Shown: piece after piece, positions 11,992-59,208 of the stretch
Layout: each line of letters starts with the position of its first letter
Position numbering within the stretch: the first letter of the stretch is position 1
NCBI RefSeq assembly: GCF_000003815.2
Contig: NC_049990.1
Location: forward strand, 3,318,438-3,382,437
Reading direction: 5' to 3'
Origin: Branchiostoma floridae
Lineage: Eukaryota; Chordata; Leptocardii; Amphioxiformes; Branchiostomatidae
DNA length: 64,000 nt
The notes under the pieces: model-generated
Seen by the model: the letters and a program-made list of their open reading frames with translations, nothing else
Told to the model about the DNA's origin: nothing
Databases searched by the model: none
Program-made: the position numbers and the translations under genes

Positions 11992-14900
11992 CTAGTTATG
12001 TTGGTATCTCCCACACCCCAGCAGTAGGTTCCTGTGTGAGAAATGCAGTTTCAGAACCGGCGTAGCTTTCGTGGGAAACGAACCCAGCAACAGCGATCCG
12101 ACCTCCACCAACGACGCCCGGTCCAAACTCGTCAGATCGTCCGAACCCGCAATCTCCTCGAAAACCTTCTGGACGTCCCAGACCTTAACGGTGTTGTCGA
12201 TCCCGCCGGAGGCGAGTAACGAACCCTCCCTACTGAAGCAGAGAGAGTAGACAGGGTCGGTGTGTCCCTTCATCTCGGCAAGAAGCCGGCCGTACGCAAT
12301 GTCCCACAGCAGCACGTTTTTATCCACGCCCGCTGATGCTAAATACCGTCCGTCTGGCGACCACGCTAGCGTGTGAACCGCCGCCTTGTGTCCGGTCATG
12401 ACGCGCACGCAGTTCCCGTTCAGAACGTCCCACAACCGGACCGTCCGGTCGCTGGAACCGGTGGCGACGTAGTTGGAGTTGGGATGGTACTGGACACAGG
12501 TGACGTCCGAGTAGTGGCCCACGAACATCCGGATGGGCTGGAACTGGTCGGTGCCCCAGAGTCGAGCCACGCGGTCATGGCCCGCCGAAACGAAATAGTA
12601 CCCCGTCGGACTGAACTGGACGTCCCACACCGGGTAGTTGTGTCCTTTGTAGACAACCTGGGAAGCAACAAAAAAAATACTGTTAGAAGCTACCAACGTT
12701 TCACCAGTATCACATCAGGTAGTTGTGCCTTTGAAGAAAAAGAAGACTTGTTAGTAGCTAACAGAATTTCACAATTGCTACAGTTCTAAAACTGGTTTGA
12801 GCACTTTCCCACACCGGGTCATTGTGCCCTTTCATTTTATTTCATTTATTTATTTCACCAGGGAAAAACACTCTCAGGCTACTGCCTGCTTTTCAGGTGC
12901 CCCTGGGCACATATACATACATAAAACATTTGTACACCACCTGGGACGAAACAAAAGACTTGTTAGTAGAAAGACAGTGTCTGTAGATAGTGTCTGTGTG
13001 AATGTGAGGAATGTTTAACCATTGTTACATTTCTGAAACTGCTTGGTTTAAGCTCTTTAACAAGACTGTTACCCTGTGCATGCATATGAATGTTCCACAG
13101 TCCCAGTGTCAGTGAAGGAGACTGTGTGTGTATGTGTATGTGTGTGTATGTGTATGTGCGTGTATATGTGTGTATATTTGTGTGTGTGTGTGTATGTGTG
13201 AGTGTCTATGTGTATGTGTGTGTATGTGTATGTGCGTGTATATGTGTGTGTATATTTGTGTGTGTGTGTGTATGTGTGCGTGTCTATGTGTGTGTGTGTG
13301 TGTATGTGTGTGTATGTGTATGTGTGTGTATATTTGTGTGTGCATGTGTGTGTGTGTGCGTGTCTATGTGTATGTGTGTGTATATTTGTGTGCGTGTCTA
13401 TGTGTAAGTGTGCGTGTGTGTGTGTGTGTGTCTGTGTGTGTGTGTGTGCATGTTCTAACATACCAAGTTACTATATGTATGCAGGCTCCACAGTCTCACT
13501 GTCCCGTCCTCTCACGATGTCAGTAACTGCTCCCTGTCTGGGCTGAAGCTCGTGGCGTAGACCGGCCCCGTGTGCCTGTGCGTGCGTGTGTCTGTGTGTG
13601 TGCCTGTGTCTGCGTGTGTATGTGTGTCTGTGTGTGTGTGTGTGCATGTTCTAACATACCAAGTTACTATAAGTATGCAGGCTCCACAGTCGTACGGTCC
13701 CATCCTCTGACGACGTCAGTAGCTGCTCCCTGTCTGGACTGAAGCTTGTCGAGTAGACCGGCCCCGTGTGCCCGTGCAGAAGCCAGGAGTCCGCCGCTGT
13801 TTTCTCGTCCATCATTCGCTCGACGATGTCGTCCGCCTCCTTGTCGAGTTGGTCCAGTTCGGATGCTCCGCGCATGGTGCGTAGGCGCTGGGGGGACAGG
13901 CTCCACACTCTCACATTCGAGTCCTCAAAACCTGGGGAGGGGGGGGGGGGGTGGGGGGCGATGTATTTATAGAAGTAAGTGAATCTGACAAAAATGGAAA
14001 TCCCTGGAAAGTCGAAGCCTAACGTTACAGATCAACCAGCTGGTGCTATCTGTGGCCACGCTGAACAATGCGGTAAAGAGACTCAAGACCATGACCAAGA
14101 TCAAACACTAGTTACAGGAAGCGAAAGGAAGTCTCATTGCAATTTATGTGATGCTTTCCTGATTGTCTCAACTATGTTCATCCCCGAGGAAGATTTCAAT
14201 TTTAGTGAATGTGTTGAACAGTTCCCTCCCTGATTGTTCCAGCTATGTTTATCCTCTGATATTTTCATCCAATGCGCTTTGACTGAGTCGACCGGTACTT
14301 TCCGCTTGCAAAAATTGTTGCGACGTGAGGTTGCTGATTGGCCATATCGGGCCTACATCACTACAAATGGTATGAGGGTAACCGTCTTTAAATACATCAT
14401 CTTATCATCTATCTTGCTTACAAATGGATTACAGACCAGTTTAGTGTGATAAAATTCCTCTTATTTCAGTGATCAATACAAGCAATATACGAAAACCTCC
14501 CCCATATTATTCAGCCAAATGGTTTCATCCGGCGCGGGTAAGCGCTATATTTGGGACACGCCAGGTCATGGCAGCTCGCCAGAAGACAAAGTCCAGGTAG
14601 CCAATCAGCGCGTGTTGTTCACGTGAACCGGGCCTGATAGCGAGTGATCAGCACGGTGTGTTCACGTGCTCAAGTTGCTGCCTGTCAGAAACACCCGCCT
14701 CCATGATTATCATACAGTGTGCCCAGGCTTGAACAGACATTTCACAGACGAGAACATAAAATCTTCAACATTTTACTTCATTCCCACCGGCGAATCGTTT
14801 CCAGTCTGAGATATCTTGTGCGATACACCTCAAGGGAGATATTTTGAGGGAAACAACCGCTATTCTGTGGGAAATATCTTTAGTTTTGCGGCTGAAAAGG

Positions 14901-17900
14901 TGAGATTTAAACCGCTTTTCAAATCTTTTACCGGTGACTCAGGGCCATTCACTCGATTTCTGCCAGACGGTGTGTTGGGATTTCGAGTTGACTCGAATAT
15001 TTTACAAGACGTTAAGTTTCACTTTCATCCATAAAAAAAGACACTCAAAACAGGTCGAAGGTTTTCACAAGATCTAAGCTTCAAGACGTGTACAAAAAAA
15101 AAATTGGGAAGGGATTTACAAGATAGTAGACTCCAAACACCCATGTTGGAGTCCTCAAAACCTGTGCGGGTGGGGTGTCACAAGATATACATGTAAGCTT
15201 CACAACATCTGTATGAAAGGAAATTGTTTAAAATGTATAACAGGCTCCACATATGCATGTCCCAGTCCTCAAAAGCTGGGGGAGATTCACAAGATGTAAG
15301 CTTCACTACCCACAATCAATCATTACTCAGTTTATCATCTGTTGTTTCCCCATCAGGCGAGGATTAGACATGTAGATGTGGTGGGTTGATGGCAGCTTAC
15401 CACCATCCTCTGCCTTTAGGGTTGGCACTGTGTAGAATGAGGAGATGAAGATCTTCCTTATACCAAAAGGAATTAAATTTAGGTACTTGTCCACAGTTTA
15501 CAACTTGTGTAACAAGTAACTTGTGTAACAATATGTGACTGTTTTTAGCACTAGGGGCAGGGATGGCAGTGTCAGTGTGAATGTCATTCAGCACCAGGGA
15601 CAGGGATGGCAGTGTCAGTGTGAATGTCATTCAGCACCAGGGACAGGGATGGCATGTCAGTGTGAATGTCATTCAGCACCAGGGACAGGGATGGCAGTGT
15701 GAATGTCATTCAGCACCAGGGACAGGGATGGCAGTGTGAATGTCATTCAGCACCAGGGACAGGGATGGCAGTGTGAATGTCATTCAGCACCAGGGACAGC
15801 AGTGTCAGTTTGAATGCTATTCAGCACCAGGAACAAGGATTCTAAAGGTACCATAGCACTTCTGTAACGAGTAAGGTGAAATTTGGCACAAATGAAACAT
15901 GTACATGAATTCTACCTCTCAGATCTCTAACCCTAACCCAATCAGATCCTATCATCATCATCATCATCTTCAATAACTCTAACTCTAACCATAACTGTAT
16001 CCCTAACTCTAACACAAACCTGCAGCCAGTAGACTGGAGTCTTCTGAGATCCCCACAGCCGACACATTCTGGTAGGCGTTGGCCAGGGTGTAAAAGCAGA
16101 TGGACGGCAGGTTCTCCCTCCCGAGGGGAACTCGCTTCAGACCCTCCTTCCAGCTTAGAACCTTCTCCAACTTGTCTGCATCTGGGGGCAAAAAGATGTT
16201 AAGTCATTGGTGCAATTTTCATAAAACATTATTGCCTTGAAAAGGCATGGAATTTATAACAAAAAAAAGCAGTAAAATAAACTTCTTTTATCTCTAGTCT
16301 TCAGCAAAGTGACATATTTACTGGCATACCATCATAGTCTGGTACATACATTTGTGTAGGGCTGTGACATACATTGCACTGAAGGCTTTTAACACTAGTC
16401 ATAGTATACACTGGTCATAGGAAACACTGGTCATAGTATACAAATATAAAGATATCATTCCCCCATCTTCTACTTGTTATTAGATGTCAAAGTCATTTTA
16501 CAATGGTGTGATACCTACTCAATACACAACACAAAAGTTTCTCATTGACAAGCAATTAGATATCGGGGGTAAAGTTTGTAAACAGACATTTCAGATTCAT
16601 AGCATCTGTTATCTTTTGTTAGTGACTTTTTAAGCATGAAATTTTCTCAATATAGCATGTATTCATAAAGTCTATTAAAAATCTTAAATGCATGTATGTC
16701 AATTTCCTCTCCTTTCTTCATTTTAAGAGAATGTGTTGCAACAAAACAAAACAGACCTTTCAGCTCAGGCAGCGGTATGCGGCTGGGAGGGGGTGCGTTG
16801 GGGTCGGCTTTCTTGTTCTTGTTCAGCAGCAGGTCTTTCTTCTGCTTCTTCTTCTTGGGCTTGTCTTCTCCGTCTCCTCCCTCATCATCATCATCCAGGG
16901 GAACATTGATGTCTGGCTCCTGGGGATAAAACAACTCCTGTTAATGAATTTTGTACGGATAAACTCACTAGCTCACTCACTATCCGTTGTTTGATAGAAA
17001 CGTAATTTGTACATGTAACATCTTCTTGGGTTCATCTTCCCCCTCCCCACCCTCATCATTGTCATCCAGGGGCACATTGATGTCTGGTTCCTGAAGATTA
17101 TATACAAAATAATGTAAACTCTTGTTAACACTATGGAAATATATTAGTACAATGTAACATCTTCTTGGGCTTGTCTTCCCCCTCCCCACCCTCATCATTG
17201 TCATCCAGGGGCACATTGATGTCTGGTTCCTGGAGATGATAAACAAATGTAAACTCTTGTTAACACTATGGAAATATATTAGTACAATGTAACATCTTCT
17301 TGGGCTTGTCTTCCCCCTCCCCACCCTCATCATTGTCATCCAGGGGCACATTGATGTCTGGTTCCTGAAGATTATATACAAAATAATGTAAACTCTTGTT
17401 AACACTATGGAAATATATTAGTACAATGCAACATCTTCTTGGGCTTGTCTTCCCCCTCCCCACCCTCATCATTGTCATCCAGGGGCACATTGATGTCTGG
17501 TTCCTGGAGATGATATACAAAATAATGTAAACTCTTGTTAACACTATGGAAATATATTAGTACAATGCAACATCTTCTTGGGCTTGTCTTCCCCCTCCCC
17601 ACCCTCATCATTGTCATCCAGGGGCACATTGATGTCTGGTTCCTGGAGATGATATAAACTCTTGTTAACACATTTCATACTAATACACTGTAGAAATGTA
17701 CATGTAACTTCTTAATGGATTTGTCTTCCCCTCCTCTCTTTGAGTCTTTTATCTTCCTCATCAAGAGGAACATGCCCGGTTTCTGAAGAGCAACAAAAGT
17801 TTTTGTCAAGTCTTTTGGGTACGTGTTTATGTTCCCCCTCCCGCCTTTGACACTCAATACCAAGTGGAAAAAACAACCCCCGCAGAAATTGCTTGCGCAA

Positions 17901-23900: not shown

Positions 23901-26900
23901 AACGTGTTATCTTCAGTGCAACCAGAAACTAAACTATCACTATATAGCCGTGTTTATGTTGACAGAAATATTAACCCAATAAATCAAGGCACATTTTCTG
24001 AGGTAATACACAAGATGGTCAGGCTTGGGAGCATCCCAAGAGAATGGGAAGCATCAGTAGAGCTGTATGTTGATTGTGCAGATGATACATATGTCCCTGA
24101 ATCTGTGAGTTCTTCCTTAATAAGTATTGTAACAACAACCAAACAAAGTCAGATTTGGAGTTCCCATTCATGGGGAAAATTGGAACTGCTGTTCATTGTC
24201 AGAAACTTACCGCTGGCAGAAAAGCCTGCAGTACAATCACAACTTGTTGATCTTTCATCAATGTTGGAAGACCGTAACTGCACTTTCGGGGTTATCAAAT
24301 TTGAATGCAGCTGTGAAGATGGCTCTGCAGTAAGTATTGGCACCACTGAGCAGCCTTCAAATATTCTACTACAAAGTCTAGTCCAAAACGAAAGCCTGAC
24401 TGAAGTATCCTTCTTGTGTGGTGGTCCAAACAAAGTGGCAGAGTTTCTACAAAACATTTTTGCAAAGAACAGAACTCTGCAGAAACTAGAAATTGGCTTC
24501 CTACATCCTGTGGATGATGAAACAATGGCAAACATATTCAGCAGTTATCCTGTGGATAGTCAAAGCCCCATAAAATCCTTTTTTGTATTAATGAAAACAA
24601 GACTTGATTCATCCCTTACGGACAAAACTGTCAGTAACCGTCACAGTTATGAACAAACAATCAGAGCTATTCTGTTCATATGTCAGAACGTAGGTGAAGG
24701 CAGTGCTTTACAGAGAATCTCATTTATCAGTAGTCTTGAAAATATCATGATGAACATGACCATCATGATGAAAGAAGTCACACCAGTTTGCCCCAGTTCC
24801 CTCTTAAAACCCTTGGTAGAGGCAATAGTAGACTCACAGTTGACTGTCAACTTAGGTATAAAATGGGAGGGTGTAACAAACCTCCATGTAACTGCAGAGG
24901 AGAGAACCAAATATGAGAATAGTGATACTTTAAGGCGGTCCAATCTTGGATATTCTGACACTGGAGTGTCTATCAAGCAGCTACTTGGATTCAAAGATTA
25001 GTTTGATTTACCTACAGTAAGAACATGAAAGAAGTAATGACACGCTGCAAACAGAAAATACTAAGATTATCAGATTATGAGATTATGCAATACAAATTGA
25101 AGAGTTGGACTGGAAGATATTGTCAACCCATCACACCCCACCCTGATCATTCCTGGTTCATCCCTAATCTCTTCAAAAGTCTAAAACATTTTAACATTAT
25201 TGATTAGGTTTGATCAACAGATGTACAAAAAATGTAATACTAATAGCTGATTGACAAATTAGACACATGTCACAATCAGTGATGTTTCTCATTCTAAGTT
25301 GACTTCATACCATCCAGATGATCTAGTACATGTACTAATATTTTTTCATGACTTTTGTAATATTCTACTTATATACTTATAAGTTAACATTGCCTCAGGT
25401 TATGTCTTAATTTGTGCAATCCTGTACAGTAGCTGTGTAACACGTAAATGTATATACCTGTGAAAGCTAGTCAAAAGCAACGTAAAGATAGTATACTCTT
25501 GTATATAAAACACAAATGTCTATTTTCATACATCTTTGTCAGGTGTATTTTTGTACTGCATGTTGTGCAATGGTGGACACTGTATTTGTACATAATTGAA
25601 TGTATCATAGACCGTAGGGTCCACAGTATCTGTGTACATATCAATTTACAAAAAAATTATTTTTCTAAGACTATATAACGCTGTAAATATCAGAACAAGT
25701 CCTGGTTATAAAAATGAACACTGTTTTTGAAATAAATTCTTTCGTTGAAAATTCGAAAGCTACTATCTCTTTCCTTTTTCTTGTTACCTACCTACCTACC
25801 TACATGTAGTACCTTAACCTCCAAGTCGTAGGGGCAAGGTAGCCTTGAAGATAGACAAATTGTTCTTGATTACTATGATTTTATCTAACATATAGCTGCC
25901 CGACAAAATCTGAATCAATCCGAAATGGAGGTATCTGGAATTGTAAAGCAGTTCTCTATGAGTCAAAGAAACAAAAGCCCTTACCTTAGGCAGTCCATAC
26001 AGCACCTTGACCTTGTTAGCATCTCTCCTGGCCTCCCCCATCATCGCACCTGACGTGGCTTGTACCTGAAGAAGGCATTCAAAAAGGCAATCAGTGAATA
26101 AAAGTAGCTTAAAATATCTTGGTCTCTTTGTCCTATGTAGAGATGGCTGTGACAGCAAACACCTACATGTACATATGTACACTTGAATTCAGGATGCTAA
26201 AAAGAGGACTAGTACGCCTCTTGCAAAGAGCTCGGGAAATTTACCTGGTACATTCAAGCAACACACCTGATCCTTTTTAAACCATGATATCAAGGAAGTT
26301 CTTCTGTTCCTACCCCAAACAATTAAGACTAGGTACTCTCAAACCAAAGCAACATACACTGTACACTTGCTGTACACTGACTTATCCTTGCTCTTTACCT
26401 GTTCCCTGTTGCGTGGAACCCCATCGAACACATCGATGAACAGGTGGTCCTGTAGGATGGAGCGATGTTCGTTTTGCTTCAGGACCACCTCTTCATCAAC
26501 CTGTACCTGATGTTACACATCCTACTCTCACCTGTACCTGATGATACACATCCCTACTCTCACCTGTACCTGTACATCTTTCCTCTTACCTGTTCCCTGT
26601 TCCTGGGCACCCCATCGAACACATAAATGAAGAGATGGTCCTGGAGGATGGACAGCAGCTCGCGATGCTCGTTCTGCTTGAGGTAGCGCCACAGGGACTG
26701 GTACCTGATGTTACCTTTAAATACTTGTAGATGTACACATCTCTACTCTCACCTGTTCCCTGTTCCTGGGCACCCCATCGAACACATCTACATGAAGAGA
26801 TGGTCCTGTAGGATGGACAGCAGCTCGCGATGTTCAGGACCACCTCTTCATCAACCTGTTCCTGATGTTACACATCCTACTCTCACCTGTACATGTACTT

Positions 26901-29900
26901 GATACACAGCCCTAACTCTCACCTGTTCCCTGTTCCTGGGCACCCCATCGAACACATCTATGAAGAGATGGTCCTGTAGGATGGAGAGCAGCTCACGATG
27001 CTCGTTCTGCTTGAGGTAGCGCCGCAGCGACTGGTACCTGATGTTACCTTTAGATACACGTCCTACTTTGGTACATATCCCTACTCTCACCTGTACCTGT
27101 ACCTGATGTTATGTTTAGATAAACAGGCCTACTCTCACCTGTTCCCTGTTGCGTGGCACCCCATCGAACACATATATGAACAGGTGGTCCTGTAGGATGG
27201 AGAGGAGCTCGCGATGTTCGTTCTGCTTGAGGTAGTGCCACAGGGACTGGTACCTGATGTTACCTACCCTACCTACCCTGATGATACACGTCCTACTTTG
27301 GTACACATCCCTACTCTCACCTGTTCCCCGTTCCTGGGCACCCCGTCGAACACATCTATGAACAGGTGGTCCTGGAGGATGGAGAGCAGCTCTCGGTGTT
27401 CTTTCTGCTTCAGGTATCGCCACAGAGACTGGTACTGATGTTACCTTTAGATACATGTAGATTTACACATCCCTACTCTCACCTGTTCCCTGTTCCTGGG
27501 CACCCCATCAAACACATCTATGAAGAGATGGTCCTGTAGGATGGAGAGCAGCTTGCGATGTTCGTTCTGCTTCAGGACCACCTCTTCATCAACCTGTACC
27601 TGATGTTATGTTTAGATAAACATCCCTACTCTCACCTGTTCCCTGTTGCGTGGAACCCCATCGAACACATCGATGAACAGGTGGTCCTGCAGTATGGAGA
27701 GCAGCTCGCGATGTTCGTTCTGCTTGAGGTAGCGCCGCAGGGACTGGTACGAGTCCCGCGACATCCGCAGCACAAACTTACTGGAGCGGAATGTGTCCAT
27801 CAGGTCATTCACCTCCATCTGTTCTCTGGTCTTTACTGGAGGGAACAAAAATGAATGAATGAATGAATGACTGGTTTATTTCCATAAACAAACAAAAAAT
27901 CACACAATTACTAACATGTCATTGCAGTTACTACAGGACTATATTGAGACATGATTCACTGTAAGTTGTAAAATCTATTGTACACTGTATTAAAATACAA
28001 ACAATCAAGATCATCAGAGTTTCTAAACCTAGAAGTTCTACATTTGAATTGTGAGATTTTGTCTTTGGACCTCAGTAGTCAACAAGTCAAATATCAATCT
28101 ACCAAAAATGTCCGCAGATGAAGGCATTTCCTTTTTGATCATTCCCAAAGCAAAGGTTTGCTCTGACTATACATTTGTTTATTTGCATCTGGTTTGAATG
28201 AAAGAGAACAATACAAATATAGTAAAAAAAAAAGAATACATTTTCCTTTGCACTTAAATCTAGACATACATGTACATGTACTAGTAACATTAACCAAACC
28301 TGTAGACAGAGTCCTAAGGTCCTCTTGATGCCAGTCTTCCTGCTCTACACTGAACCTACAGGACAACAGTGTACCAGTATTAAATATTGCAACATTTCAC
28401 AAAGACTATTGAAAAATTAACTTAAAGGAAAATAAGAAAAGGAATGTACAAGCAACAAACTTAACTCAGAAAGGTTTCTAATTCAAGGCTTGTAATTCAG
28501 GAAGCCTCATGTTGTTGTTGCTGTTGTTATTGCTGTCAGAAGGCCTCATGTTTTTGTTTTGTTGTTGTGTCTACAAATTTAAATAAAACAAGTCTAACTA
28601 CACACCTGTTGAAGAACTTCTGCGCCTCCTTCTCATGCCTGTTGTAGACCAGCTGCAGGTACATGTGGATAAACACTGGATACAGCAGGCAGCCGAGCTC
28701 GTGTTTGTGGGCGTCTAGCGAGGACTCGATGAACGAACTGAGAGAGCTGTAGTATTCACAGTACCTGGCAAAACATACACATTTAGCAATAAACATGGGG
28801 TACAGCAGACAGCCAAGCTCATGTTTGTGGGCATCTAGCGAGGACTCGATGAAGGAGCTGAGGGAACTGTAGTACTCACAGTACCTGGAAATATCAGTAG
28901 CAACAACAATATAAACATTTAACAATAAACACAGGGTACAGCAGACTTCATGTTTGTGGGCGTCTAGGGAGGACTCAATGAAAGAACTGAGAGAGCTGTA
29001 GTATTCACAGTACCTGGAAATAGAGCATGGAAAAACATACACAATTAGTAATAGATTAAACACTGGATAGAGCAGGCAGCCGAGTTCATATTTGTGGGCA
29101 TCTAGCGAGGACTCAATGAACGAACTGAGAGAGCTGTAGTACTCAGTGCTACTCACAGTACCTGGAAATATCAGTAACAAAAAATATAAACATTTAACAA
29201 GAAATACAGGGTACAGCAGGCAGCCGAGTTTGTGTTTGTGGGCGTTGAGGGAGGACTTGATGAACGAACTGAGAGAGTACATTTGTACTGTAAATTTATT
29301 TATTTATGAACCTACATATAATTTCATGGAAGCAGTGGGGAAAAAGAGATTTGCCCAGTGTTTTACGCCCATGTCTGAAACAATTCTACTAGTGCAGTAG
29401 TAAAACGTTCTAATAACAATGTTGTTGTACTTAGCCTGTGTACTATTCACCGCAGTAACTGCTGGCTCAATCTCTTTGCTTGCTAACTACATACTAGTAG
29501 TAGTACTGGTACATTAGTCATAATACAAAAGACTATGCCAGCAGTTACTACACCAGTGGATGGTACCCAGGCTAGCTTGTAAGTGATACTGAGTGATAGT
29601 GTCATTTCTTCGCGGAGAGAGGTCAGCTGTTAACTTACAGTGTTAGAGAACTTAGACCAATACCATGAGTTCTATGTCCAATTATTCCGTCTTGAGCACA
29701 CCGTACCTTGCCAGGTCCCCTTCGCTCTCGTAAGCTGACAGGACCGATGACACTTCTCCGCTGGTGGCGACCCTGGATGACCCCCCAGAGTCCCCGCTCC
29801 CATCTGGCAGCTTGGCCTCCCGTCTCAGAGCAGCCTCAGCGTCCTTCAGCTTGTTGTTCTTAAGAAACTGCAAGACGGCAGCAAGGGTCTGCTGGTCCAT

Positions 29901-30912
29901 CTTACTGGGGTCTGTCCTGGTGGGAAGGAAGTGAAAGGGAAATAAATATCAATTGCAGCCTCCGCATCCTTCAGCTTGTTGTTCTTAAGGAACTGTAAGA
30001 CGGCTGCAAGAGTCTGCTGGTCCATCTTACTGGGGTCTGTCCTGGGGAGGGAAGATGGCAGGTGTTCATGATAGGACTTGATTTATAAATGCTCCTTGAT
30101 TTTATAAAAAGAAAATAAAGTACTTAGTAAGTTAGTGAACTTTCCTTTTTTCCTATTCTCTTTCGTTCTAGTATTTCCCTCTACTTCCATCTCTCCTTTC
30201 CTCTTTCTCCTCCATTTTCTCTCTTCCTCTCCCCATCTACTGTTACATTGTATCTCTCTCTCTCTCTCTCTCTCCCTCTCTGAGTCTCTCTCTCTCTGTC
30301 ACATGCTTCAGACCTTGAATGAGTTTACAGGGATTTGAAGCCACAAGTATTTGATCCAAAGGTGGACTTCTTAATATCTTGACAACAGCACACAGACGAT
30401 AGGGTTTGATACTTATATACCAACAGCAGCAATTAAACAACATAAACTTATCATGAGTGCCCTCTTGCGAATCATCTTGTATGACATGTTCCAACTGCTA
30501 GCTAGGGCATCATGTAGCACAACAGTAACTAAACAGTAACAGCAATATCTGATAATGTTTCTTCTGTACAACCAAAGTACGTAAATTAGACTTGCATATA
30601 TGTGTGTGTGGGGAATAAAGTATATCATAAAGGGTGACAATCTACGAACGTTAGCAACGATAACTCTACTCTACTCTAAGCTCTACTCTACTCGCGTTGT
30701 GAAGCGATTTTCTGGCGGGCTTGCGCTAGCGAGCACGCAAAACGACTTGTACTTGAGTCTAAACCTAACATAACACCTTCAAAGTCAGCAGAATCTTACC
30801 CTGCGCCTTTGTCCACCTTGGGTGAGCTCTGTACTCCCGTAGCCGCCACAGAAACGGCGCTACCGTTGTTTGAACCATCGGAAACCACGACGGTACGGTT
30901 GGGGTCCGCCAT
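11992..30912 (-). CDS. TAF5: TAF5, WD40 subunit of TFIID and SAGA
   Basis: Complete model on the minus strand: exons 30912-30800, 29916-29707, 28764-28606, 28355-28300, 27835-27636, 26065-25985, 16919-16757, 16181-16020, 13931-13660 and 12657-11992. All junctions keep frame, giving 693 aa (human TAF5 is about 800, with a longer N-terminus). A LisH-like segment lies near residues 46-77 (TLAAVLQFLKNNKLKDAEAA). The TAF5 N-terminal domain spans roughly 108-273 (EYYSSLSSFIESSLDAHKHE; SKFVLRMSRDSY). A charged linker (VPLDDDDEGGDGEDKPKKKK) precedes WD40 repeats from about 382 to the end (GHTGPVY, VRLWSL, GHDRVARLW, GSSDRTVRLWDVLNGNCVR). TAF5 scaffolds the general transcription factor TFIID. Five exons have tandem partial copies beside them, and the 9-kb intron 6 hosts an NLR gene on the other strand. 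Confidence 0.95.
12830..12930 (-). repeat. CR1/L2-like retrotransposon 3' tail
   Basis: Read on the minus strand this is the tail CACCTGAAAAGCAGGCAG...CCCTGGTGAAATAAATAAATGAAA. It matches the 3' ends at 3640-3700 and 32627-32700. Only the tail is present, as expected from extreme 5' truncation. It lies in TAF5 intron 9. Confidence 0.65.
13108..13455. repeat. (TG)n microsatellite/minisatellite
   Basis: TG-rich simple repeat with higher-order units (TGTGTGTATATTTGTG...) in TAF5 intron 9. A second block at about 13575-13650 separates the partial and complete copies of exon 9. Long open frames here on both strands are low-complexity artefacts. Confidence 0.95.
13460..13580 (-). repeat. Partial copy of TAF5 exon 9 (donor side)
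   Basis: The minus strand repeats the last ~110 bp of exon 9 (HTGPVYATSFSPDREQL... to the donor TTG|GTATGTTAG), ending within the exon. It lies 196 bp beyond the real donor (13660) in transcription order. It has diverged (for example stop-like changes and SPSHD for SSEDG), so it is not functional coding. It follows the pattern of donor-side copies placed after the intact exon. Confidence 0.85.
15545..15835. repeat. Minisatellite, ~41-47 bp units
   Basis: Six to seven units of GTGAATGTCATTCAGCACCAGGGACAGGGATGGCA-type sequence lie in TAF5 intron 8. I found no exon similarity in the unit. Close by, at 15920-16020, are degenerate CTCTAACC/CCCTAACC hexamers that resemble telomere repeats but are too short and irregular to be one. 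Confidence 0.85.
16995..17795 (-). repeat. Array of partial copies of TAF5 exon 7 (acceptor side)
   Basis: Five close units with a period of about 139-140 bp, plus one older diverged unit (about 17690-17790). Each has an intron end (ATCTCCAG or ATCTTCAG), the first ~69 bp of exon 7 (EPDINVPLDDNDEGG...KPKK), then intron-like sequence ATGTTGCATTGTACTAATATATTTCC. Each would hit a stop shortly after. The complete exon 7 is the last unit in transcription order (16919-16757). The copies read NDEGG and EGED where the real exon reads DDEGG and DGED, so they share changes and arose from one another. Confidence 0.9.
18949..19047. repeat. 99-bp foldback element
   Basis: GTACTCTCCTTAACAGAGGTTGGTGGGAA and its near-complete inverted copy (ending CCAACCTCTGCTTGGAGAGTAC) flank a ~40-bp loop. 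It is probably a tiny MITE or foldback. It lies in TAF5 intron 6. Confidence 0.55.
19304..19337. repeat. Perfect short hairpin
   Basis: The 16-bp arms CAAGGAGGTTAAAATC and GATTTTAACCTCCTTG are separated by two bases. The phrase AAGGAGGTTAAAATT recurs near 47910, so it may be the end of a repeat family. Function unknown. Confidence 0.5.
19736..20960. repeat. Interspersed repeat with internal ~160-bp tandem units, copy A
   Basis: Units containing GGAGCCAAAAATATACATTTTT and CAGGTCATTAGGTTTCCATAC recur about every 153-161 bp (for example 20222, 20375, 20536, 20697). The flank holds CTAGAAAGGCCGACATTTG...GAGCAAATACAGCATATT. The whole block is present in inverted orientation at 40685-41985. A short hairpin built on ATATTGCAATCC/GGATTGCAATAT lies at about 20921-20957, and ATTGCAATCCAT also occurs near 19907. 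No coding capacity. Confidence 0.75.
21179..25001 (+). CDS. DEATH-NACHT NLR-like receptor (5' end not found)
   Basis: Two exons are visible: 21179-21616 (starts with 2 nt of a split codon, so an upstream exon is missing) and 21879-25001, with stop. Exon one encodes a Death domain (SYKWDDLARNLGFERGEIEA; CREVLERWQNRNGAKATLQV). Exon two has a NACHT ATPase: Walker A GDPGIGKTT (22112-22138), Walker B VLFVLDGLDEMP (about 22357-22392) and VIITSRP. A post-NACHT helical region follows (FLHKTFQEYFAAKHLL). The C-terminal ~600 residues have no clear leucine-rich repeats; NESLTEVSFL and NRTLQKLEIGFL are only LRR-like. NLRs are cytosolic innate sensors, and this domain pairing is expanded in amphioxus. A 100-N gap interrupts the NACHT region. 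The gene sits inside TAF5 intron 6 on the opposite strand; AATAAA follows at 25731. Confidence 0.88.
22666..22765. other. Assembly gap (100 N)
   Basis: A run of exactly 100 N, the usual placeholder for unknown gap length, falls in the NLR exon. Codon phase before and after is compatible with a missing length that is a multiple of 3, including zero. Confidence 0.98.
25731..25736 (+). promoter_or_regulatory. Poly(A) signal of the NLR-like gene
   Basis: AATAAA on the plus strand, about 730 bp after the NLR stop codon and about 250 bp before TAF5 exon 6 on the other strand. It is a plausible transcript end. Confidence 0.45.
26394..27605 (-). repeat. Array of partial copies of TAF5 exon 5 (donor side)
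   Basis: Seven partial copies follow the intact exon 5 (27835-27636) in transcription order, near 27480, 27315, 27135, 26921, 26750, 26585 and 26394. Most span from ...GGTACCAG|TCCCTG to the donor GAACAG|GTGAGAGTAG, encoding about 36 codons (RYLKQNEHRELLSILQDHLF ... FDGVPRNREQ). In those copies the piece is 108 bp and phase 0 at both ends. The 26394, 26750 and 27480 copies are shortened. Intron-like spacers contain ACCTGTACCTGATGTTAC phrases. Confidence 0.9.
28775..29285 (-). repeat. Array of partial copies of TAF5 exon 3 (acceptor side)
   Basis: Four partial copies precede the intact exon 3 (28764-28606) in transcription order. Each starts at an acceptor (TTTCCAG or TTGCCAG|GTACTGTGA), encodes YCEYYSSLSSFIESSLDAHK plus about 10 more residues, then runs into intron-like sequence without a donor. 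The outermost copy has decayed (SFIKSSLNAHKHKLG). The units and spacers keep one open frame of 248 codons (29282-28536), which includes the real exon. Confidence 0.9.
29945..30050 (-). repeat. Partial copy of TAF5 exon 2 (acceptor side)
   Basis: The minus strand repeats the exon 2 acceptor and its first ~85 bp (DPSKMDQQTLAAVLQFLKNN, then KLKDAEAA), then diverges. It lies upstream of the intact exon 2 in transcription order, as in the other acceptor-side arrays. Only a few substitutions separate the two copies. Confidence 0.85.
30250..30302. repeat. (TC)n microsatellite
   Basis: A TCTC run with few interruptions in TAF5 intron 1. Confidence 0.9.
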
Positions 30913-31572: not shown

Positions 31573-31599
31573 TGAATAACATAGACTAGAGGTAGATCT

Positions 31600-31701: not shown

Positions 31702-31828
31702 AGGTATATGTGAGGTGGGCAGGTGTTAAGCGGTAAACAGATACTAACAGGTTACCGTACCGACAAAAACAAGATGATTACGGTAAGTGAACGGTGACAA
31801 ATTTTGTTAAGCTACAGTACGTAGAATA

Positions 31829-35100: not shown

Positions 35101-35795
35101 CCCACCACACTTCTCCATTAGGGCAAATAACTCCCTAATGATACATCTAGAAGGCTTGGCCTTAATGAGGAATAGTACCATTTTGCTTGGTTGGGTAGTC
35201 TTGTCCACATGCCGAACACATAAAAGAAATTACGACATAAAATATACAACAAAGAGAGGGGTATTAGAAATCAACTGATTATCACAAAATCCCTCCAAAT
35301 CTGTTTTACTTTTGGTGAATCTTCTTTTAGGTTGTTAAAAATGCAAATCTTCATAGTTCTTGTATACCTCTCTTCTGATAATGATATTAAAGTGTATCGA
35401 GATGTTCTGCACACTGGGATGTCATTTTGACTCTGCTGTATATAGTCTTAAAAGCTCAATATCACTTTCACAATCATCTGTATCTGACTTAACATTTTGT
35501 ATTTTCTCCCTCATCTTCAGGATATTTGTATGATGTAACCGGAAACTACGACGCTTCGTTCTACACGGCCGGAAGTGCGGTGCTCTGTAGTGTGTTGCTC
35601 ATGACGCCAGTAGAGATCTTTCTCACCAGAACAGCCCATTCCCGAGGGGATCGGGAAAGAACAGTGCCCGATGACATTGACATTGACCTTGCAGTGTCTG
35701 GGACAGGAAAGGAAGCAGTAGAAGAGTCCTTAGAGTTAACTGAGGACATGAGAAACTGCAAGGTTCCATTTCTTGAAGAGGAGACAACAGTGTGA
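32183..35795 (+). CDS. SLC16 monocarboxylate-transporter-like protein
   Basis: Complete four-exon model: 32183-32390, 33041-33184, 34018-34788, 35521-35795. All introns are phase 1 with GT-AG sites; 465 aa. The N-terminal PDGGWGWFVVLSSFLCHL motif is diagnostic of SLC16 transporters, followed by KSFGVFFPYFLEAF and TSWVSSI. VFGCRAVVMMGS and RYFKKRRALANGLG follow, and GVSRIAYGWLSDLG falls in the second half. The pattern of hydrophobic segments fits the family's 12 membrane helices with a large central loop (near residues 205-225). The family carries monocarboxylates, aromatic amino acids, creatine or thyroid hormones across the plasma membrane; the substrate here is unknown. It is arranged head-to-head with TAF5 (about 1.3 kb between start codons). 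The acidic C-terminal tail is duplicated after the stop. Confidence 0.93.
32627..32700 (+). repeat. CR1/L2-like retrotransposon 3' tail
   Basis: CCAGGGAGTCCTGAAAAACAGGCTGAAGCCTGAG...CCTGGTAAAACAAAATAAATGAAA matches the tails at 3640 (plus) and 12830 (minus). It lies in SLC16 intron 1. Confidence 0.65.
32845..33014. repeat. 56-bp minisatellite, three units
   Basis: GAAGCTGGTGTGTTATGCCGAAGGGCGG... repeats at 32845, 32901 and 32957. It ends just before the acceptor of SLC16 exon 2 at 33041. The unit itself does not contain exon sequence. Confidence 0.9.
33308..33415 (+). mobile_element. C-terminal scrap of a non-LTR reverse transcriptase ORF
   Basis: An open frame reads NEWNALPGTVVSAPNVECF then RDRQAACPP and a stop. 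This resembles the conserved end of RTE/CR1-type ORFs (W-N-x-L-P ... S-A-x-x-V-x-x-F). It lies in SLC16 intron 2 with a (CA)n run after it. Truncated on the 5' side. Confidence 0.45.
34813..35097. mobile_element. MITE with 9-bp target duplication
   Basis: The 285-bp element starts TAGCCTCCGTTGCAGTCTTC and ends in the inverted GAAGACTGCAACGGTGGCTA. Inverted similarity covers about 50 bp, including GGGCTGGTTTTTAT. GAACCCACC occurs directly on both sides (34804-34812, 35098-35106). A 9-bp duplication suggests the Mutator group; hAT (8 bp) is the alternative. It lies in SLC16 intron 3. Confidence 0.75.
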
Positions 35796-35796
35796 C

Positions 35797-36003
35797 ATCG
35801 AACAGTGCCTGGTGACATTGACCTTGCAGTGTCTGGGACAGGAAACCTTGAACCTTGAACGTGGACATCAGGGATGTCATCACTGGTCGCAATGGATCCT
35901 TCTTCTCCACTCGGGAAAGGAAGTAGTAGAAGAGTCCTCGGAGTTAACTGAGGACACGAGAAACTGTAAGGTTCCATTTCTTGAAGAGGAGACAACGGTG
36001 TAA
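35797..36003 (+). repeat. Duplicate of the SLC16 C-terminal coding end, after the stop
   Basis: After the stop at 35795 the sequence repeats the last part of exon 4 with changes: ACAGTGCCTGGTGACATTGA, GTGTCTGGGACAGGAAA, then an almost exact copy encoding KEVVEESSELTEDTRNCK, VPFLEEETTV and a second stop (36001-36003). The copy has an internal insertion. It is probably now 3' UTR. Confidence 0.85.
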
Positions 36004-37264: not shown

Positions 37265-40200
37265 GTATATACATACACACACACTCACGCACACACAGAC
37301 ACACACACATACATACACGCACACACAAACACTCACACCACGCACACATATACATACATACACACACAAACACACGAACAAACAAACACACAGAGAGAAA
37401 GATAATGAAAACAATACCTCTAATCTAACGACTTTGATGCAGTAGTACGTTCACACACGCAGATACGCACACACACACATACACACGTGCACACACACAC
37501 ACACAAACAAATACTCATAGAAAGATAACAATAACGAAACCTTCACGACTATGAAGTAGTAGCAGTGGTGTACTTACATCTGACATGTGTATACCCCACC
37601 GGTACCAGACCAGGCGCCGTTCTGCAGACATGTCATGGAGGAGACGAAGGATGTCGGGATGTACCCGGAATAGCAGTGGAACGTACAGGTGGTCCCGTAG
37701 GTGTACGGAGGGGCGCTGGTACAGTGGAAGTAGGCGCCGAACGTTAGCGGCGGGTTACAGGTGCCCTGGCTCTCGTCTTTGTCGGGAAAAAAGTCAACAA
37801 TGTTATCCTTTTATCTTGGAAGAAGAAAATGTCAAGCATGTCTGTTAAAGCCATACTGTACAGAGGGTCGCTGGTACAGTGGAAGTACGCGCCGAACCTC
37901 AGTGGAGGGTAACAGATACCTTGGCTCTCGTCTTTGCAGGGGAAAAACCTTGCCTCTTGATCAACATTGTTATATTATCAAAATGGTAATATTATCAGGT
38001 GGCCCCGTAGGTGTACAGAGTCGCGCTGGTACAGTGGAAGTAGGCGCCGAACGTCAGTGGAGGGTTACAGGTACCCTGGCTCTCGTCTTTGTCGGGAAAA
38101 AGAAGAATACAAAGTCAAGCATGTCTCTTGATCAACAATGTTATATTATCAAAATGGTACGTAATATCATCAGATGGTCTCGAAGGGGTACGGCGCGCAG
38201 GTACAATGGAAGTAGGCGCCGAACGCTACTGGGTAGTTACAGGTACCCTGGCTCTCGTCTTTGCAGGAGAGGGAAGAAAAAAACTACGTCAAGCATGTAG
38301 ATCAACATTATTATATTATCAAAATGGTAATAAATTATTATCAGGTGGCCCCGTAGGTGTACAGAGTCGCGCTTGTACAGTGGATGTAGGCGCCGAGCGC
38401 TAGCGGAGAATTACAGGTACCCTGGCTCTCGTCTGTGAAGGAGAAAGAAGAATACAAAGTCAAGCATGTTTCTTGATCAACACTGTTATATTATCGAAAT
38501 GGTGATATTATCAGACGACCTCTTAGCTGTACGGAGGGGCGCTGGTACAGTGGAAGTAGGCACCGAACGTTAGCGGCGGGTTACAGGTGCCTTGCGTCTC
38601 GTCTTTGTCGGGAAAAAAGTCAACAATGTTATCCTTTAATTTTATCTTGGTTTTCTGTTCCGGCCTCGACCTGAGGCCCCGTCTTTACCATCCATACCTT
38701 AAGGGGGTTACACGTGCCCTGGGTCTCGTTTTTGCAGGAGAAAGAAGAAGAAAATGTCAAGCATGTCTCTTAAAGTTAAAGCCATACTGTACGGAGGGCC
38801 GCTGCAACATTGGAAGCAGGCGCCGAACGCTAGTGGGGGGCTACAGATACAGGTGCCTTGGGTCTCGTCTTAGCAGGAGAAAAAGAAGATACAAAGTCAA
38901 GCTTGCCTCTTGATCAGAATCGTTATATTATTATCAAAATGGTAATATGGTGGTCCCGTAGCTGTACGGAGGCGCGCTGCTACAGTGGAAGTAGGCACCG
39001 AACGCTAGCGGCGGGTTACAGGTGCCTTGGGTCTCGTCTGTGAAGGAGAAAAAAGAATACAAAGTCAAGCATGTTTCTTGATCAACACTGTTCCATTATC
39101 AAAATGGTAATATTATCAGATGGCCCCGTAGGTGTACGGAGCGCTGCTACAGTGGAAGTAGGCACCGAACGTCAGTGGAGGGTTGCACGTGCCTTGGGTC
39201 TCGTCTTAGCAGGAGAAAAAGAAGATACAAAGTCAAGCTTGTCTCTTGATAAGAATCGTTTTATTATTATCAAAATGGTAATATGGTGGTCCCGTAGGTG
39301 TACGGAGGGGCGCTGGTACAGTGGAAGTAGGCACCGAACGCTAGTGGCGGGTTACAGGTACCCTGGGTCTCGTCTTTGTCAGAAAAAAAAGTCAACAATG
39401 TTATCCTTTTATCTTGGTTTTCTGTTCGGGCCTCGACCTAAGGCCCCGTCTTTACCATCCATACCTTAAGGGGGTTACACGTGCCCTGGGTCTCGTCTTT
39501 GCAGGAGAAAGAAGAAGAAAATGTCAAGCATGTCTCTTAAAGTTAAAGCCATACTGTACGGAGGGCCGCTGCAACATTGGAAGCAGGCGCCGAACGCTAG
39601 TGGGGGGCTACAGATACAGGTGCCTTGGGTCTCGTCTTTGTCGGGACAAAGAAGAAGAGAAAGTCATAAGCTTGACTCTTGATCAACATTGTTATATTGT
39701 CAAAATGGTAATATTATCAGGTGGTCCCTTAAGGCCCCCTCTCACTTGACGTGCGGCACGCTTGCGGCATTGCTGCGTTCGTTCACTGCGGCACTGTTGT
39801 GTTAATTTCACCGATTTGGTCTTGCACTCACACTGACGTGCGGCACTGTTGCGTTTCTAGACTAAATGAACATGTTATTGACAATTGCAGCGTTGTCAAT
39901 TTATTAAAAATCACTGTAAAATGATGAGAATGCCCCAAAATGAGATTTATAATGAAAAAAATTTCCCTTATGATAATGAATTATATGATACATATGCTAC
40001 CTTCAACTAGTTAAATTGTATCATGTTGTTTTTTCATATGTTTGTTATTCTGTTATCAGTCATGTCTGTTATCAGTGACCTGTACCTAGCCCGTCGAGGC
40101 ATGAATGTACAATAAAGGTCTTTCATTATTATTATTATTATCATTATTATTATAAATAACCTTGAAAGACTTTTACTGTAAAGGAAATGACCCAAATGAA

Positions 40201-43200
40201 CGGACACGAACCATATACCAGATTTGAATCGATGTGTACGTTTTGCACCATGTAACGTTATGTGTAATTATGTATGTTTATATGTTTATTCACCAATTTT
40301 GCAAATTTTTAAAATGAAAATGCTTGATATTTCATACTTTTTTGTATGACGCGGAGTATTTTCATTGTCGGCGGATGGCTTGCCAGCCTATTGATGTCTA
40401 AGTCTATCATATTTGTAAAAAGTGAGAAAAATATGGCCCATGGGTCTGAATGACTGCAATTTTGTTTTTTATCGGTGGCAGGCTACCAGCAATGATTAGC
40501 TTGTAACGTTATAACGCAAACGCAAACTCGTTATCATCCAACATAAATAATTTCTTTTTGAACGTTGTACGATAACCTTTATCTCTACATCCGTAGGTTA
40601 ATCGATAAACCAGTTACTTATTTTTTGTTTTCAAGTATAAAATACTGACCTACTTCCAATTAAATAAATCAAAAGATGTATTTATATTTCAGCCATACCA
40701 TAGGTATGGTGAAATATATTGTATTCGTAATGTTTCTTTCTTCTTTCTTTCTTTCTTTCTCCTGTCAAATCTTCAAATCGAATCAACTCCGCCATTTTTT
40801 GACCGATTGACTTGAAATTTGGCACAAAGGTAGAGTAAGCCAATACCCCCAGGTGTTTTTTTCATTTTTTTCATATCTGCCTTTAAAATGATTTTATTGA
40901 GGTTTTTATCAATTTTTATGTATATTTCGGGCTCCTGTACCCTGGTATTACAGCCGAATGACATGAAATTTGGTACAGAGGTGCCTTGATCATATGCTCA
41001 CCTAGATTCAATAACAGTTTTGGCATACGGTACAACAAAATGCTTAATTTTGCGATTTTTGGCCATTTTTTTACCAAAAAAGGACATTTGTGGCTCCTGT
41101 AGCCTCGTTTTACAACCAAATGATCTGAAATTTGGTATAAAAGTGCCCTTCAATTATGTGCACATAAATTCAATAAAATTTTTCCCATACGGTACAACAA
41201 AATGCTTAATTTTGCGATTTTGGGCCATTTTTTGACCCAAAAAGGACATTTGTGGCTCCTGTAGCCTCGTTTTACAACCAAATGATCTGAAATTTGATAT
41301 AAAAGTGCCCTTCAATTATGTGCACATAAATTCAATAAAAGTTTTCCCATACGGTACAACAAAATACTTAATTTGGGATTTTTGGGCATTTTTTTGACCA
41401 GAAAAGGACATTTTTGGCTCCTGTAGCCTCGTTTTACAACCAAATGATCTAAAATTTGGTATAAAAGTGCCCTTCAATTATGTGCACATAAATTCAATAA
41501 AAGTTTTCCCATACGGTACAACAAAATACTTAATTTTGCGATTTTTGGGCATTTTTTTGACCAGAAAAGGACATTTTTGGCTCCTGTAGCCTCGTTTTAC
41601 AACCAAATGATCTAAAATTTGGTATAAAAGTGCCCTTCAATTATGTGCACATAAATTCAATAAAAGTTTTCCCATACGGTACAACAAAATACTTAATTTT
41701 GCGATTTTATGGCCATTTTTGACAAAATTTGGACATTTTTGGCTCCTGTTCCCTCGATTTACAACCTAATGACCCGTAAATTGGTAAAGGGGTGCTCTAG
41801 ATATCTATTCAAATGACCCATGTATAATTTTTGGCATGGACCACTTTAAAATGATATATTTGGGATTTTTTTGGTCATTTTCCAATGGCCAAAGGGGTCA
41901 ACGACCTCAAGGCCTATTGTTGCATGAGGGAGATGGCTGAAATATGCTGTATTTGCTCTCAAGCAAATGTCGGCCTTTCTAGTTTTAAGTTAACTCTGAA
42001 TACGGATACAAGGTAAGTTTTGTGGAATTCGCAGTGTTTTTACTGGATCGAAAACCACTGTAAAATTATTAGAAATGCATCTAAAATAGTTTTTCGGTGA
42101 TAAAAGGATGTTTACTTTTGATTCTTGGTGTGAAATAGGCAAAATATATCCTTGATACTGTTTGGGGCATGGTGGCGGCACTGTTGCGGCACCGTTGCGG
42201 CACTGTTGCGGCACTGTTGCGGCACTGTTGCGGCATCTTGCCACTTGCGTTATTTTTAAACTTTTTAAAAAACGTCGCGCTTGCTTGCGGCACTTCTAGG
42301 TTTGCTTGCGGCACCTCTAGGTTTGCTTGCGGCACCTCTAGGTTCCGTGGCGGTACATCTGCGTTTTCGAACGCAGCAATGCCGCAAGCGTGCCGCACGT
42401 CAAGTGAGAGGGGGCCTTTAGCTATACGGAGGCGCGCTGGTACAGTGGTAGTAGGCACCGAACACTAGCGGTGGGTTACAGGTGCCCTGGGGCTCGTGTT
42501 TGCAGGAGAAAGAAGAAGAAAAAGTCAAGCTTGTCTCTTGAACAACAATGTTACCTTTTGTTTTTTTAACGACGCAATATGGTGGTCAACTCATGCAGTA
42601 GTGCTGATATAAGTTGCCAACATACGGACTTGTATATATGTGCGTATATATTCAAGTCCGTATAATGTCCATATAGAATTCTTATCCTTTAACGTGCTTC
42701 ACAGTTCGCTGGAAAAGTTTTAGAAATCGGACAAATCTAGACATACAACATGCCAGAGGTGTTATATTAGCTGGAAGCAAACCATACTCCTCAACCATCC
42801 AACTCCTCTAGCATGTTGTGTGTACGAGTATAATGCCCATTTTTTCAGCAACCTGTGGAGCCTGCTTGAATTCAGCTGCCGTAATTAGCTAGCGCCGAAA
42901 AAGTCCGAGAGCCCAGTAGAAAGTCGCAGAATATACTGTGTAAAAGAATCTCTAGTTTCTCTCATACTGCATATTTTGTTCTGTGAAATCTTGTTATATA
43001 ATGCGTATGTTACTATTCCTGTTCCTTGTAAGTCCACGAGGGCTGGGCGCACAAAGCGCAAGACATGTACTACTAAATAAAATGTCATTCATTCATCCGT
43101 CCAATTCATTCATTTGCCACGTTATAACACAAAGTTAACGTATCAACCGTACCTTGTGACAAAGCCGGGCAGGCGACCATCGCCGCGATCAACAACAGAA

Positions 43201-43222: not shown

Positions 43223-43287
43223 CTGTTGAGTCGAGTAAAGAGCACTGCAGTAGTCAAGTTAGGGCTTGTTGCGGGTGTGGCAATTTC

Positions 43288-43293
43288 TTTATA
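43288..43293 (-). promoter_or_regulatory. TATA box of the CCP gene
   Basis: TATAAA on the minus strand, about 66 bp upstream of the CCP start codon. It would place transcription start about 35-40 bp before the ATG. Confidence 0.5.
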
Positions 43294-43299
43294 CTGTAT

Positions 43300-45377
43300 C
43301 AAAGGCCATGGGAACCACACAGCTGATCGATAGGGACCGGAAATATTTCTAGAGTCTGATACAATCGTATCTACACACACACACACTCGTGTAAGCGGTA
43401 AGGTAAATACGATTGTACGCGGCAAAATTTGATTTCAATGAATAGGATGTTCAATGTGTATTTCGGCCTCGAAAGAAGATATCAGAACTCCGTAGAGCGC
43501 GATTCTAAGTGTTTTGAACACAAAGTTTCTTTGCTGTACCAATATCGATGCTGTACTATATCTATGAGTATTTGTATCGTCAATGTTGATGATATCTACC
43601 CCTCAGTTATGAGGGGATACAGACTAAGTCACATTTTGCACACAAAATTCGTGCCTTAGCGCCACCTTGCGAAATAAAGCGGAACACCATTACAACCCTG
43701 AGGAATGCTTAGGTCAGATGTTCAAACCGGGACCCGGCCGGGCTGTATGTGGGAACGAAAAAGTATGATATAAAAGACAACAAAACAGTCACAAAACGTT
43801 TTGAAAAATTATTGGTCTTGAGCACAATTTGTGCATATTTCTTTGTACAAAATTTGGGCACGTCTGAACGCAAATAACACTTAAACTGTGAAAAAAATAT
43901 CAGTCCAACGCCTACATGTATAGTAGCTCATTTTGCGTTATGAGCAAAAGCTAGTGGTTGAAGCTACGTCATCTTGAAGAAATTGCAAATGAGTTTTTGT
44001 GTGGAAAACTGATATAAAGGTTCATAAAACGCATTGTAGGTATTTCCTAGCCTCCGTAGCAGGCTCTCTGGGGCCCTTTTCCGTCTCTTTTTGGCTCATG
44101 ATACACTTTTGCTGGTCATTTATCTTTCTACTGGATCGCTTGACTGCCGGGGCCAGGAAGAAGGCTATGGGGGCTATTTTCACTTTATTCATAAGGCATT
44201 GTGCCATGTGGACTTGATAACTTTTAGGCCATCAGAAGCCGGGCATCATAATTATTCATATAGTTAGTTTTGACCCCTCTCGACCATACAAGTGCCTGGT
44301 GCTTTAAGCAAACCCTGAAAAATATCAGCCGGTCCCGTTTCTCTCCAGCATTCAATTTTCCCCCTTCTCTATTCCTTATAAGGGCACAGCGACCCCATCG
44401 TCACAATCCCGTGGCGTAACCTAACTGTGTTTAACTCAGCTGTCAGCTATGCTGTAACAATAGGGACCGTATTTTCCCTACGTAGGCGTCTGTTTGAGTG
44501 CCCCACACCTGAAACGCGATACCACTGCACGTCATGGCATGTTGGGGTCGACCCACTTATTCGAAAGAAAAACACAGACTTCTTTCTATGTCACACTGCG
44601 CTTAGAGGTCGACATTCATCTACAAGTTTGGCGGGTTTCTGTCTTGCTTTGCCTTTGGACGTACGCGTCTTGTCGCTATTTTAGGACGCATTCGATTCTA
44701 GGCTCCTCGTAAAGAAAGCCTTTGAAAGACGTTCAGGACAAGATGACGCCGCACTTCTGCTTGGAGTTTACGGAAGCGTGTCGTCCGACTCCCACGCGAC
44801 CTTGCACCAAAACCTACTGATGACGTCATGACATGGATACCTGCCAAGAAAAGCCTTTAATTCAATCTGTCCAAAAATAGGAGGAATGCTTTTTAAAAAG
44901 TCCACAAATTACAAAATATGAGTCTATTTTTACACCCTACTAAGCTCCATCGTATAGAAAATATCTAAATTATATTTTTTACTTCAAAAATATTGATTTT
45001 TATGGCTTGTGGTGTTGCCAAGGTGACAGGAAAACACGTTCTTGGCAAATTTTCCTCCCACTAAGCTGACTACCGGAAGACAGTCCTGATTGTCGTCACG
45101 TGGGTTCGACTGGCCGGTGAGTCTCGAGTCCAGGAATTTCCCGGTGAAAAACCGTCTCGAGCTGCGCTTCCTTCTGCTTTTCGCTTTCTTCTGATTTTTT
45201 ATCCTCTCGTTTCTACGTTCTACACGACACAACTTGGTTTATAAGACCTTCAGTGTGTGATTTAAAGCGTTAGGAACTCGGTACATAGTTAGAGAGTGGG
45301 CCAACAGTTCTTTGTTGGACGGGGCGGGAGATTTAAACGTTAAACCCGACGGCGTCGTTGTCCCCACCGTACCCCGG
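43300..45377. other. Region between CCP and Plk genes
   Basis: The two genes are divergent, so their promoters lie here. TGACGTCA (44821-44828) is a full CRE palindrome about 550 bp upstream of the Plk start. GTCACGTG near 45096 contains an E-box and GGGGCGGG near 45320 a GC box. These are single motif matches. No further gene was found. TAGCCTCCGTAGCAGG at about 44050 resembles the start of the MITE family at 34813, but no right end was seen. Confidence 0.35.

Positions 45378-59208
<13,831 letters not shown>

Follow-up and report, generated by a model that had tools for sequence, protein, structure and literature searches.

In most of the tandem arrays that we find beside exons, both in a 64,000-bp stretch of the Branchiostoma floridae genome (the window) and in a few genes elsewhere, the coding halves of the repeated units have changed mainly silently. 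The arrays in the window are amphioxus-type mirages, tandem duplications of exon/intron boundaries, and they add new members to this reported class; the arrays are of a known kind, while the way in which their half exons have evolved looks like a new and testable anomaly. The partial exon copies, which we call decoys, appear not to be inert. The best explanation, to which we give a confidence only just past the halfway mark, is that the real exon and its decoys frequently exchange sequence by gene conversion within a very large population.

Boundary arrays in the window

Local direct repeats, as detected by TRF and self-BLAST, form 18 clusters and occupy 10,492 of the 64,000 bp of the window (16.4%). 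All the boundary arrays listed in the preliminary description were recovered, five of them in TAF5, one at a Sushi (CCP) exon and two in Plk, and the gene identities proposed there hold according to Pfam matches and comparison with human TAF5 and PLK3/PLK2, Plk being a PLK2/3-type kinase. Beyond these there is a fourth gene, for an MFS transporter (MCT), with a copied exon part. Units run from the intron into the exon (acceptor side) at TAF5 e2 and e6, Plk exon 4 and CCP, and from the exon into the intron (donor side) at TAF5 e4 and e8 and Plk exon 11. The earlier statement that each unit has one breakpoint in the exon and one in the intron and keeps a real splice site is correct for nearly all aligned copies; it does not apply to the e1 copy, which holds a start codon and upstream sequence, or to the outer e2 copy (29208-29295), in which the acceptor is lost. 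AG or GT is present at the anchor in 28/28 scored decoys, which do not include this outer copy, with anchors that were partly picked by that very signal; in e2 decoy 29151 the AG at the anchor is not the acceptor. Tandem units spanning an exon-intron boundary, together with splice signals kept in the copies apart from the outer e2 one, are the features by which these arrays belong with the mirages.

TAF5 lies on the minus strand and spans ~12.0-29.9 kb, as identified by its TFIID_NTD2 and WD40 Pfam domains and by human TAF5. Our labels e1, e2, e4, e6 and e8 correspond to exons 2, 3, 5, 7 and 9 of the preliminary description, which apparently counts one more exon upstream. The coding exon e1 (29700..29918) contains the start codon and a LisH-like region (Pfam LisH families match weakly, below cut-off), and a copy that takes in its 5' part and sequence upstream of it (29955..30043) differs by 6 silent and 0 amino-acid changes. 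Intact e2 (28608..28764; TFIID_NTD2, human TAF5) is accompanied by an acceptor-side array of 4 decoys (28789..29277) with spacings of 120, 129, 138 and 144, the nearest decoy showing 11 silent differences and 1 amino-acid difference over 96 bp. All four spacings are multiples of three, and one open frame of 255 codons (28539-29303, minus strand) holds the array, which could be read as an in-frame expansion. Intact e4 (27636..27836; TFIID_NTD2, human TAF5) has a donor-side array of 7 decoys with mosaic silent-site patterns (26371..27596); the last 64 bp of the outermost decoy depart from the intact exon at 2 sites. The exon at 16760..16919 we take to be e6 from gene order and from its likeness to TAF5 sequence, no Pfam family being over cut-off; its acceptor-side array (17005..17656) has 5 decoys with a unit of ~139 bp. 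The WD40 exon e8 (13661..13947; Pfam WD40) has one donor-side copy of its 3' part at an offset of ~194 (13464..13581), with 10 silent and 3 amino-acid differences and one in-frame stop, and the last coding exon (12000..12660; Pfam WD40) is free of arrays.

The intact Sushi/CCP exon (37577..37795, minus strand; Pfam Sushi) is preceded by an acceptor-side array of 12 copies or fragments with units of ~155-175 bp (37857..39731), and a stray copy of the unit is found on the same strand ~3 kb off (42419..42515). Beside the stray copy is a perfect 51-bp inverted match (39731-39781 / 42368-42553), which suggests a rearrangement that displaced one CCP unit.

The plus-strand arrays belong to Plk and the transporter. 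Exon 4 of the PLK2/3-like gene (50557..50779; Pkinase, PLK3/PLK2) has an acceptor-side array of 7 decoys and a fragment (49277..50504), in which differences from the exon range from 11.5 silent and 4.5 amino-acid down to 5 and 6. Small deletions towards the end of the exon-derived stretch, in HRDLKLG, are common to most of these decoys, and decoy 50376 contains an internal duplication of ~20 bp whose two sides, judged by eye, are like different decoys. In this region (49250-50800) the motif GTAAG, a possible cryptic donor, occurs inside the exon part of 4/7 decoys and is absent from the intact exon. Exon 11, which ends at 57538, has a short donor-side 60-bp repeat (57510..57636). In the transporter, copies of the probable last coding part (35678..36001; MFS_1 Pfam on the preceding exon) include one at 35914-36000, and the longer copy shows 3 silent and 3 amino-acid differences.

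Self-BLAST also revealed arrays of similar units where we recognise no exon, at 20031-20849, 40924-41786 and 54927-55484, so the arrays are not confined to splice boundaries. The first two, with units of ~160 bp, are mutually inverted relatives (~73% identity over 585 bp), and this unit is therefore present at more than one place. Many units measure 120-200 bp, a nucleosome-like size, but the sampled offsets begin at 60 and detection is poorer for short ones, and we make no claim about it. Mobile elements are also present in the window. Two 479-bp inverted repeats in a Plk intron, 99.6% identical (54240-54718 / 56749-57227), flank ~2 kb with a zinc-finger-like frame seen by eye, and by its sequence the whole resembles a DNA transposon of recent origin whose terminal inverted repeats are long. 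At 60507-63998 there is a long frame like that of a Gypsy retrotransposon, with protease, integrase and reverse-transcriptase-like stretches recognised by eye, which continues past the window end.

Arrays elsewhere in the genome

The number of events in one window had been taken as a sign of a genome-wide process rather than a single accident. A single accident is indeed not what we see, as similar arrays are found elsewhere in kinesin, kinase and CCT genes: one kinesin gene (L063) has a long array, long arrays flank a kinase exon on either side (L032), and short ones were noticed by eye at a kinesin exon and at two CCT exons. The idea of a process directed at splice boundaries, on the other hand, is not supported when the rate of repeats at boundaries is compared with shifted positions in a small sample. 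Among 108 CCT/kinesin exons, 7/216 boundaries were within 30 bp of a local repeat vs 10.3 under random circular shifts (p for at least this many, 0.91). This sample of CCT chaperonin and kinesin genes comprised 29 segments and 134,478 bp with 3.45% local repeats, leaving aside L063, whose own array had led to its discovery, any kinesin row of at least 300 bp and the kinase loci. The window gave 11/48 boundaries near a local repeat vs 9.0 by chance (p 0.34), with exon ends that are approximate. Local duplication is common, and a sample of this size shows no preference for boundaries.

Counterparts were searched for in 513 Mb of genome in 431 contigs, where no second haplotype of the kinase array was found. 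Tables for mitochondrial-carrier, myosin and UCH genes showed no clear array, a result of little weight since only copies matching a protein model are visible there, 65/346 myosin candidates were scored and the carrier domain is self-repeating. One globin locus out of 9 globin matches, inspected as a possible known mirage, showed no repeat. At L032 a stretch of ~82 bp 3' of the kinase exon (~2032-2126) has at least 40 dispersed relatives with 84-92% identity among the 40/1062 candidates scored.

Silent bias in the exon-derived halves

Differences are concentrated at third codon positions in 9/11 arrays with a usable exon part, and Fisher's method gives a combined p of ~8e-11 over all 11 arrays, both negative ones included. 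Counts per array are small. Since the copies of one array are related and not independent, the safer test is by variable columns: over 7 arrays, intact exon against decoys, these fall at codon positions 1/2/3 as 30/23/83 (p 4e-11), and among the decoys themselves as 28/21/64 (p 3e-7). For the nine positive arrays, which have 32 copies between them, gapped local alignment, which trims diverged ends, yields 207.0 silent differences over 708.1 sites and 65.0 amino-acid differences over 2006.9 sites, a dN/dS of 0.11; this set excludes CCP, MCT and the short exon parts in L043, L059, L070 and L073. A second, fixed-anchor alignment of 30 of the decoys, without the outer e2 copy and the Plk fragment 49277-49324, gives a dN/dS of 0.16, and the ratio of amino-acid to silent differences (N:S) over the nine arrays is 0.31 or 0.47 depending on the alignment. 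Outside the window, the kinesin decoys show 6 silent and 0 amino-acid differences, and 4.5 and 1.5, and those of the kinase 3/0, 3/0, 3/0 and 4/0. The two arrays without silent bias are CCP, with 16/18/18 variable columns at the three codon positions, and MCT. The three non-genic arrays show no 3-base signal.

Base composition does not explain the bias, as third positions are more variable at G/C sites (77/244 vs 55/314), at A/T sites (38/91 vs 43/357) and at non-CpG sites (90/292 vs 80/606), in pooled tests in which 6 columns, from MCT, were read in the wrong frame. Constraint is as strong in copies with a frame break or a stop as in open ones (dN/dS 0.13 for 5 copies and 0.11 for 27), so that it does not require translation. 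An apparent contrast between open and broken copies, 0.10 vs 0.35, arose from poor alignment and is gone in the gapped one.

Proposed exchange between decoys and the working exon

The mechanism that we propose would start from local tandem duplication, which may occur anywhere; where the unit happens to straddle one boundary, the product would be an array of half exons with one splice site each, next to an intact exon that still works. Short conversion tracts would then shuttle sequence back and forth between the real exon and its decoys, both within and between chromosomes, turning the exon part into a multicopy family with one working seat. Each decoy would have a working exon as a recent ancestor, and a decoy with a changed amino acid would be purged once copied into the working seat, while silent changes would pass freely and could persist up to ~n times longer than at a single-copy site, n being the number of copies. 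That decoys exchange with the working exon, show purifying selection without a function of their own and should raise the silent variation of the real exon several-fold over the genome average is a prediction to which we assign a little less than an even chance.

Forward simulations, run once per setting in small populations in which a single working copy was accompanied by neutral decoys, show which kinds of exchange could produce the bias. Unequal crossover alone gave N:S of 1.1-2.4, and one-way conversion from decoys to exon 1.35-1.85; when conversion ran only in the reverse direction the lowest N:S was 0.56, and silent divergence was no more than 1.7-3.8 pi at the higher rates. Since N:S never fell below 0.56 in these runs, we rejected crossover alone and one-way conversion as sources of the silent bias. 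Slow symmetric conversion (2Nc 8-40) gave 1.1-2.2, whereas at 2Nc 200 N:S was 0.27 (n=3) and 0.64 (n=7), and at 2Nc 1000 0.09 (n=3) and 0.26 (n=7). Under frequent symmetric conversion silent divergence reached 2.6-4.1 pi (n=3) and 7.3-9.0 pi (n=7), and allelic diversity was raised. In the simulation, frequent exchange can produce both the silent bias and a large part of the divergence.

Published values for amphioxus allow the required rates to be gauged. The pi_S of B. floridae is given as 0.0397 and its Ne as 1.68 million (PMC12862219), and the average number of non-crossover conversions per offspring as 96.1 over 73.0 Mb on the paternal side and 56.3 over 61.1 Mb on the maternal side, with a mean length of 99 bp (PMC12500494). 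From these figures, 2Ne times the allelic non-crossover rate is 439 (paternal) and 307 (maternal) per site. A simulated site is covered by ~1/3 of tracts, as estimated from the tract rule, which puts the working range at ~10-110 per site and unit, below both of these figures, so neighbour-copy conversion at ~5-35% of the published allelic rate would suffice.

The observed silent divergence of ~0.3, by array 0.12-0.39, is 7-8 times pi_S. The n=8 arrays (Plk 0.24, e4 0.35) fit the model, but in most small arrays silent divergence is above n x pi (e1 0.29 and e8 0.32 with n=2; kinesin 0.21 and the kinase acceptor array 0.33 with n=3), and arrays with n=2-3 would be 1-4 times too divergent unless they were formerly longer. 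In the nearest unit of the kinase acceptor array only 2/85 sites differ in the intron part against 0.33 at silent sites, and with such a near-identical intron the exchange model needs separate conversion of the exon part. Incompatible site pairs in TAF5 e4 agree with mosaic exchange, being 11/56 nearer than 30 bp vs 52/80 farther away, while incompatibility does not rise with distance in Plk (7/18 near, 6/18 far) or e2 (5/5, 3/5).

Could the decoys be under selection as protein? If alternative splice sites placed half-exon copies in the product, the bias would follow directly, and the open e2 array, in which 3/3 tested decoys, alone among the acceptor decoys, read through into the exon, is what one would expect. 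However, translation could not run on from 16/19 acceptor decoys into the real exon (14 meet a stop and 2 are off frame), hence the constraint cannot in general stem from decoy translation. Half exons also lack a second splice site, the broken-frame copies are equally constrained, most Plk decoys share the deletions in HRDLKLG, and the Adh3 data and globin RT-PCR in PMC3087553, as far as presented there, point to no splicing interference; we consider translation very unlikely. At the opposite extreme the decoys would be inert, the outcome of plain tandem duplication and neutral decay, with the bias due to chance or detection. CCP (N:S 88:54 summed over 13 copies) and MCT (3:3) are unbiased as this would have it, and the kinesin array was noticed through repeated protein matches, a route that favours conserved copies. 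Against this, 10/11 arrays were delimited by DNA similarity, composition fails to account for the bias, and inert decoys under crossover gave a simulated N:S of at least 1.1, far from that of the nine positive arrays, so that we regard inert decoys as unlikely.

Selection might instead favour silent change in the real exon away from its decoys, either for splice-site choice or to block harmful exchange. It would account for silent divergence being larger than nearest-unit intron divergence in the kinesin (0.21 vs 0.08) and kinase acceptor (0.33 vs 0.02) arrays, yet differences between decoys are also mainly silent, which selection driven by the exon does not predict, and the intact e2 exon has silent states in common with its outer decoys rather than being set apart; to this, too, we give only a slight chance. 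The units could also come from deeply diverged haplotypes, through introgression or old balanced alleles, joined by unequal crossing over with no continuing exchange. The silent-site mosaics of TAF5 e4 do interleave, and alleles of one gene would have few amino-acid differences, but silent divergence 3-10 times pi_S in several unrelated genes would require many very old haplotypes, and we find this origin quite unlikely.

If frequent conversion between decoys and the working exon is the correct reading, a low dN/dS, which is normally taken to mark functional coding sequence, could arise in untranslated debris in very large populations. Mirages would then be natural recorders of conversion between neighbouring copies, testable with the published amphioxus pedigree, and silent-only divergence would be no proof that an extra exon copy is used, which is a warning for annotation.

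Relation to known systems

The preliminary description mentioned intronic minisatellites at an amphioxus Adh locus and left it to be checked whether they include exon ends. The lead was right: at Adh3 the repeats extend across an exon-intron boundary, and the name mirages was given to them (PMC3087553). The same paper describes them in two globin genes, BflGb6, with units of 150-160 bp and 81-100% identity, and BflGb9, with a unit of 157 bp; splicing was apparently undisturbed, and the units of a cluster evolve in concert. One mirage array is described there as seemingly misassembled in the draft genome, but BflGb6 exists as two haplotypes with 6 and 3 units (PMC3087553), and the class is therefore real rather than an assembly artefact as a class. 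Similar repeats are reported in PGBD5, with troponin C cited (PMC3902484). As far as these two papers describe them, known mirages have the same build as our arrays, with tandem units over one exon/intron boundary, on either side of the exon, up to ~160 bp long and with splice signals in many units; what differs is the genes, here TAF5, a PLK2/3-like kinase, a Sushi protein, a kinesin and a further kinase. The words "synonymous" and "gene conversion" are absent from the main text of PMC3087553, where silent-only divergence is apparently undiscussed, and a literature search mostly at the level of titles, and largely outside subscription papers, returned no report of such divergence in mirages.

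Minisatellites share with the arrays their head-to-tail imperfect repeats and mosaics; here, in contrast, most units are 120-200 bp long, each is coding in part, and one of the copies serves as the end of a working exon. Mutually exclusive tandem exons are likewise tandem exon copies within one gene, but those are whole exons with both splice sites, whereas our units end inside the exon and 16/19 acceptor decoys have no open, in-frame path into it. In multigene families under concerted evolution, copies exchange by conversion and diversity scales with copy number; in the arrays described here the exchanging unit would be half an exon, and only one copy would be under selection.
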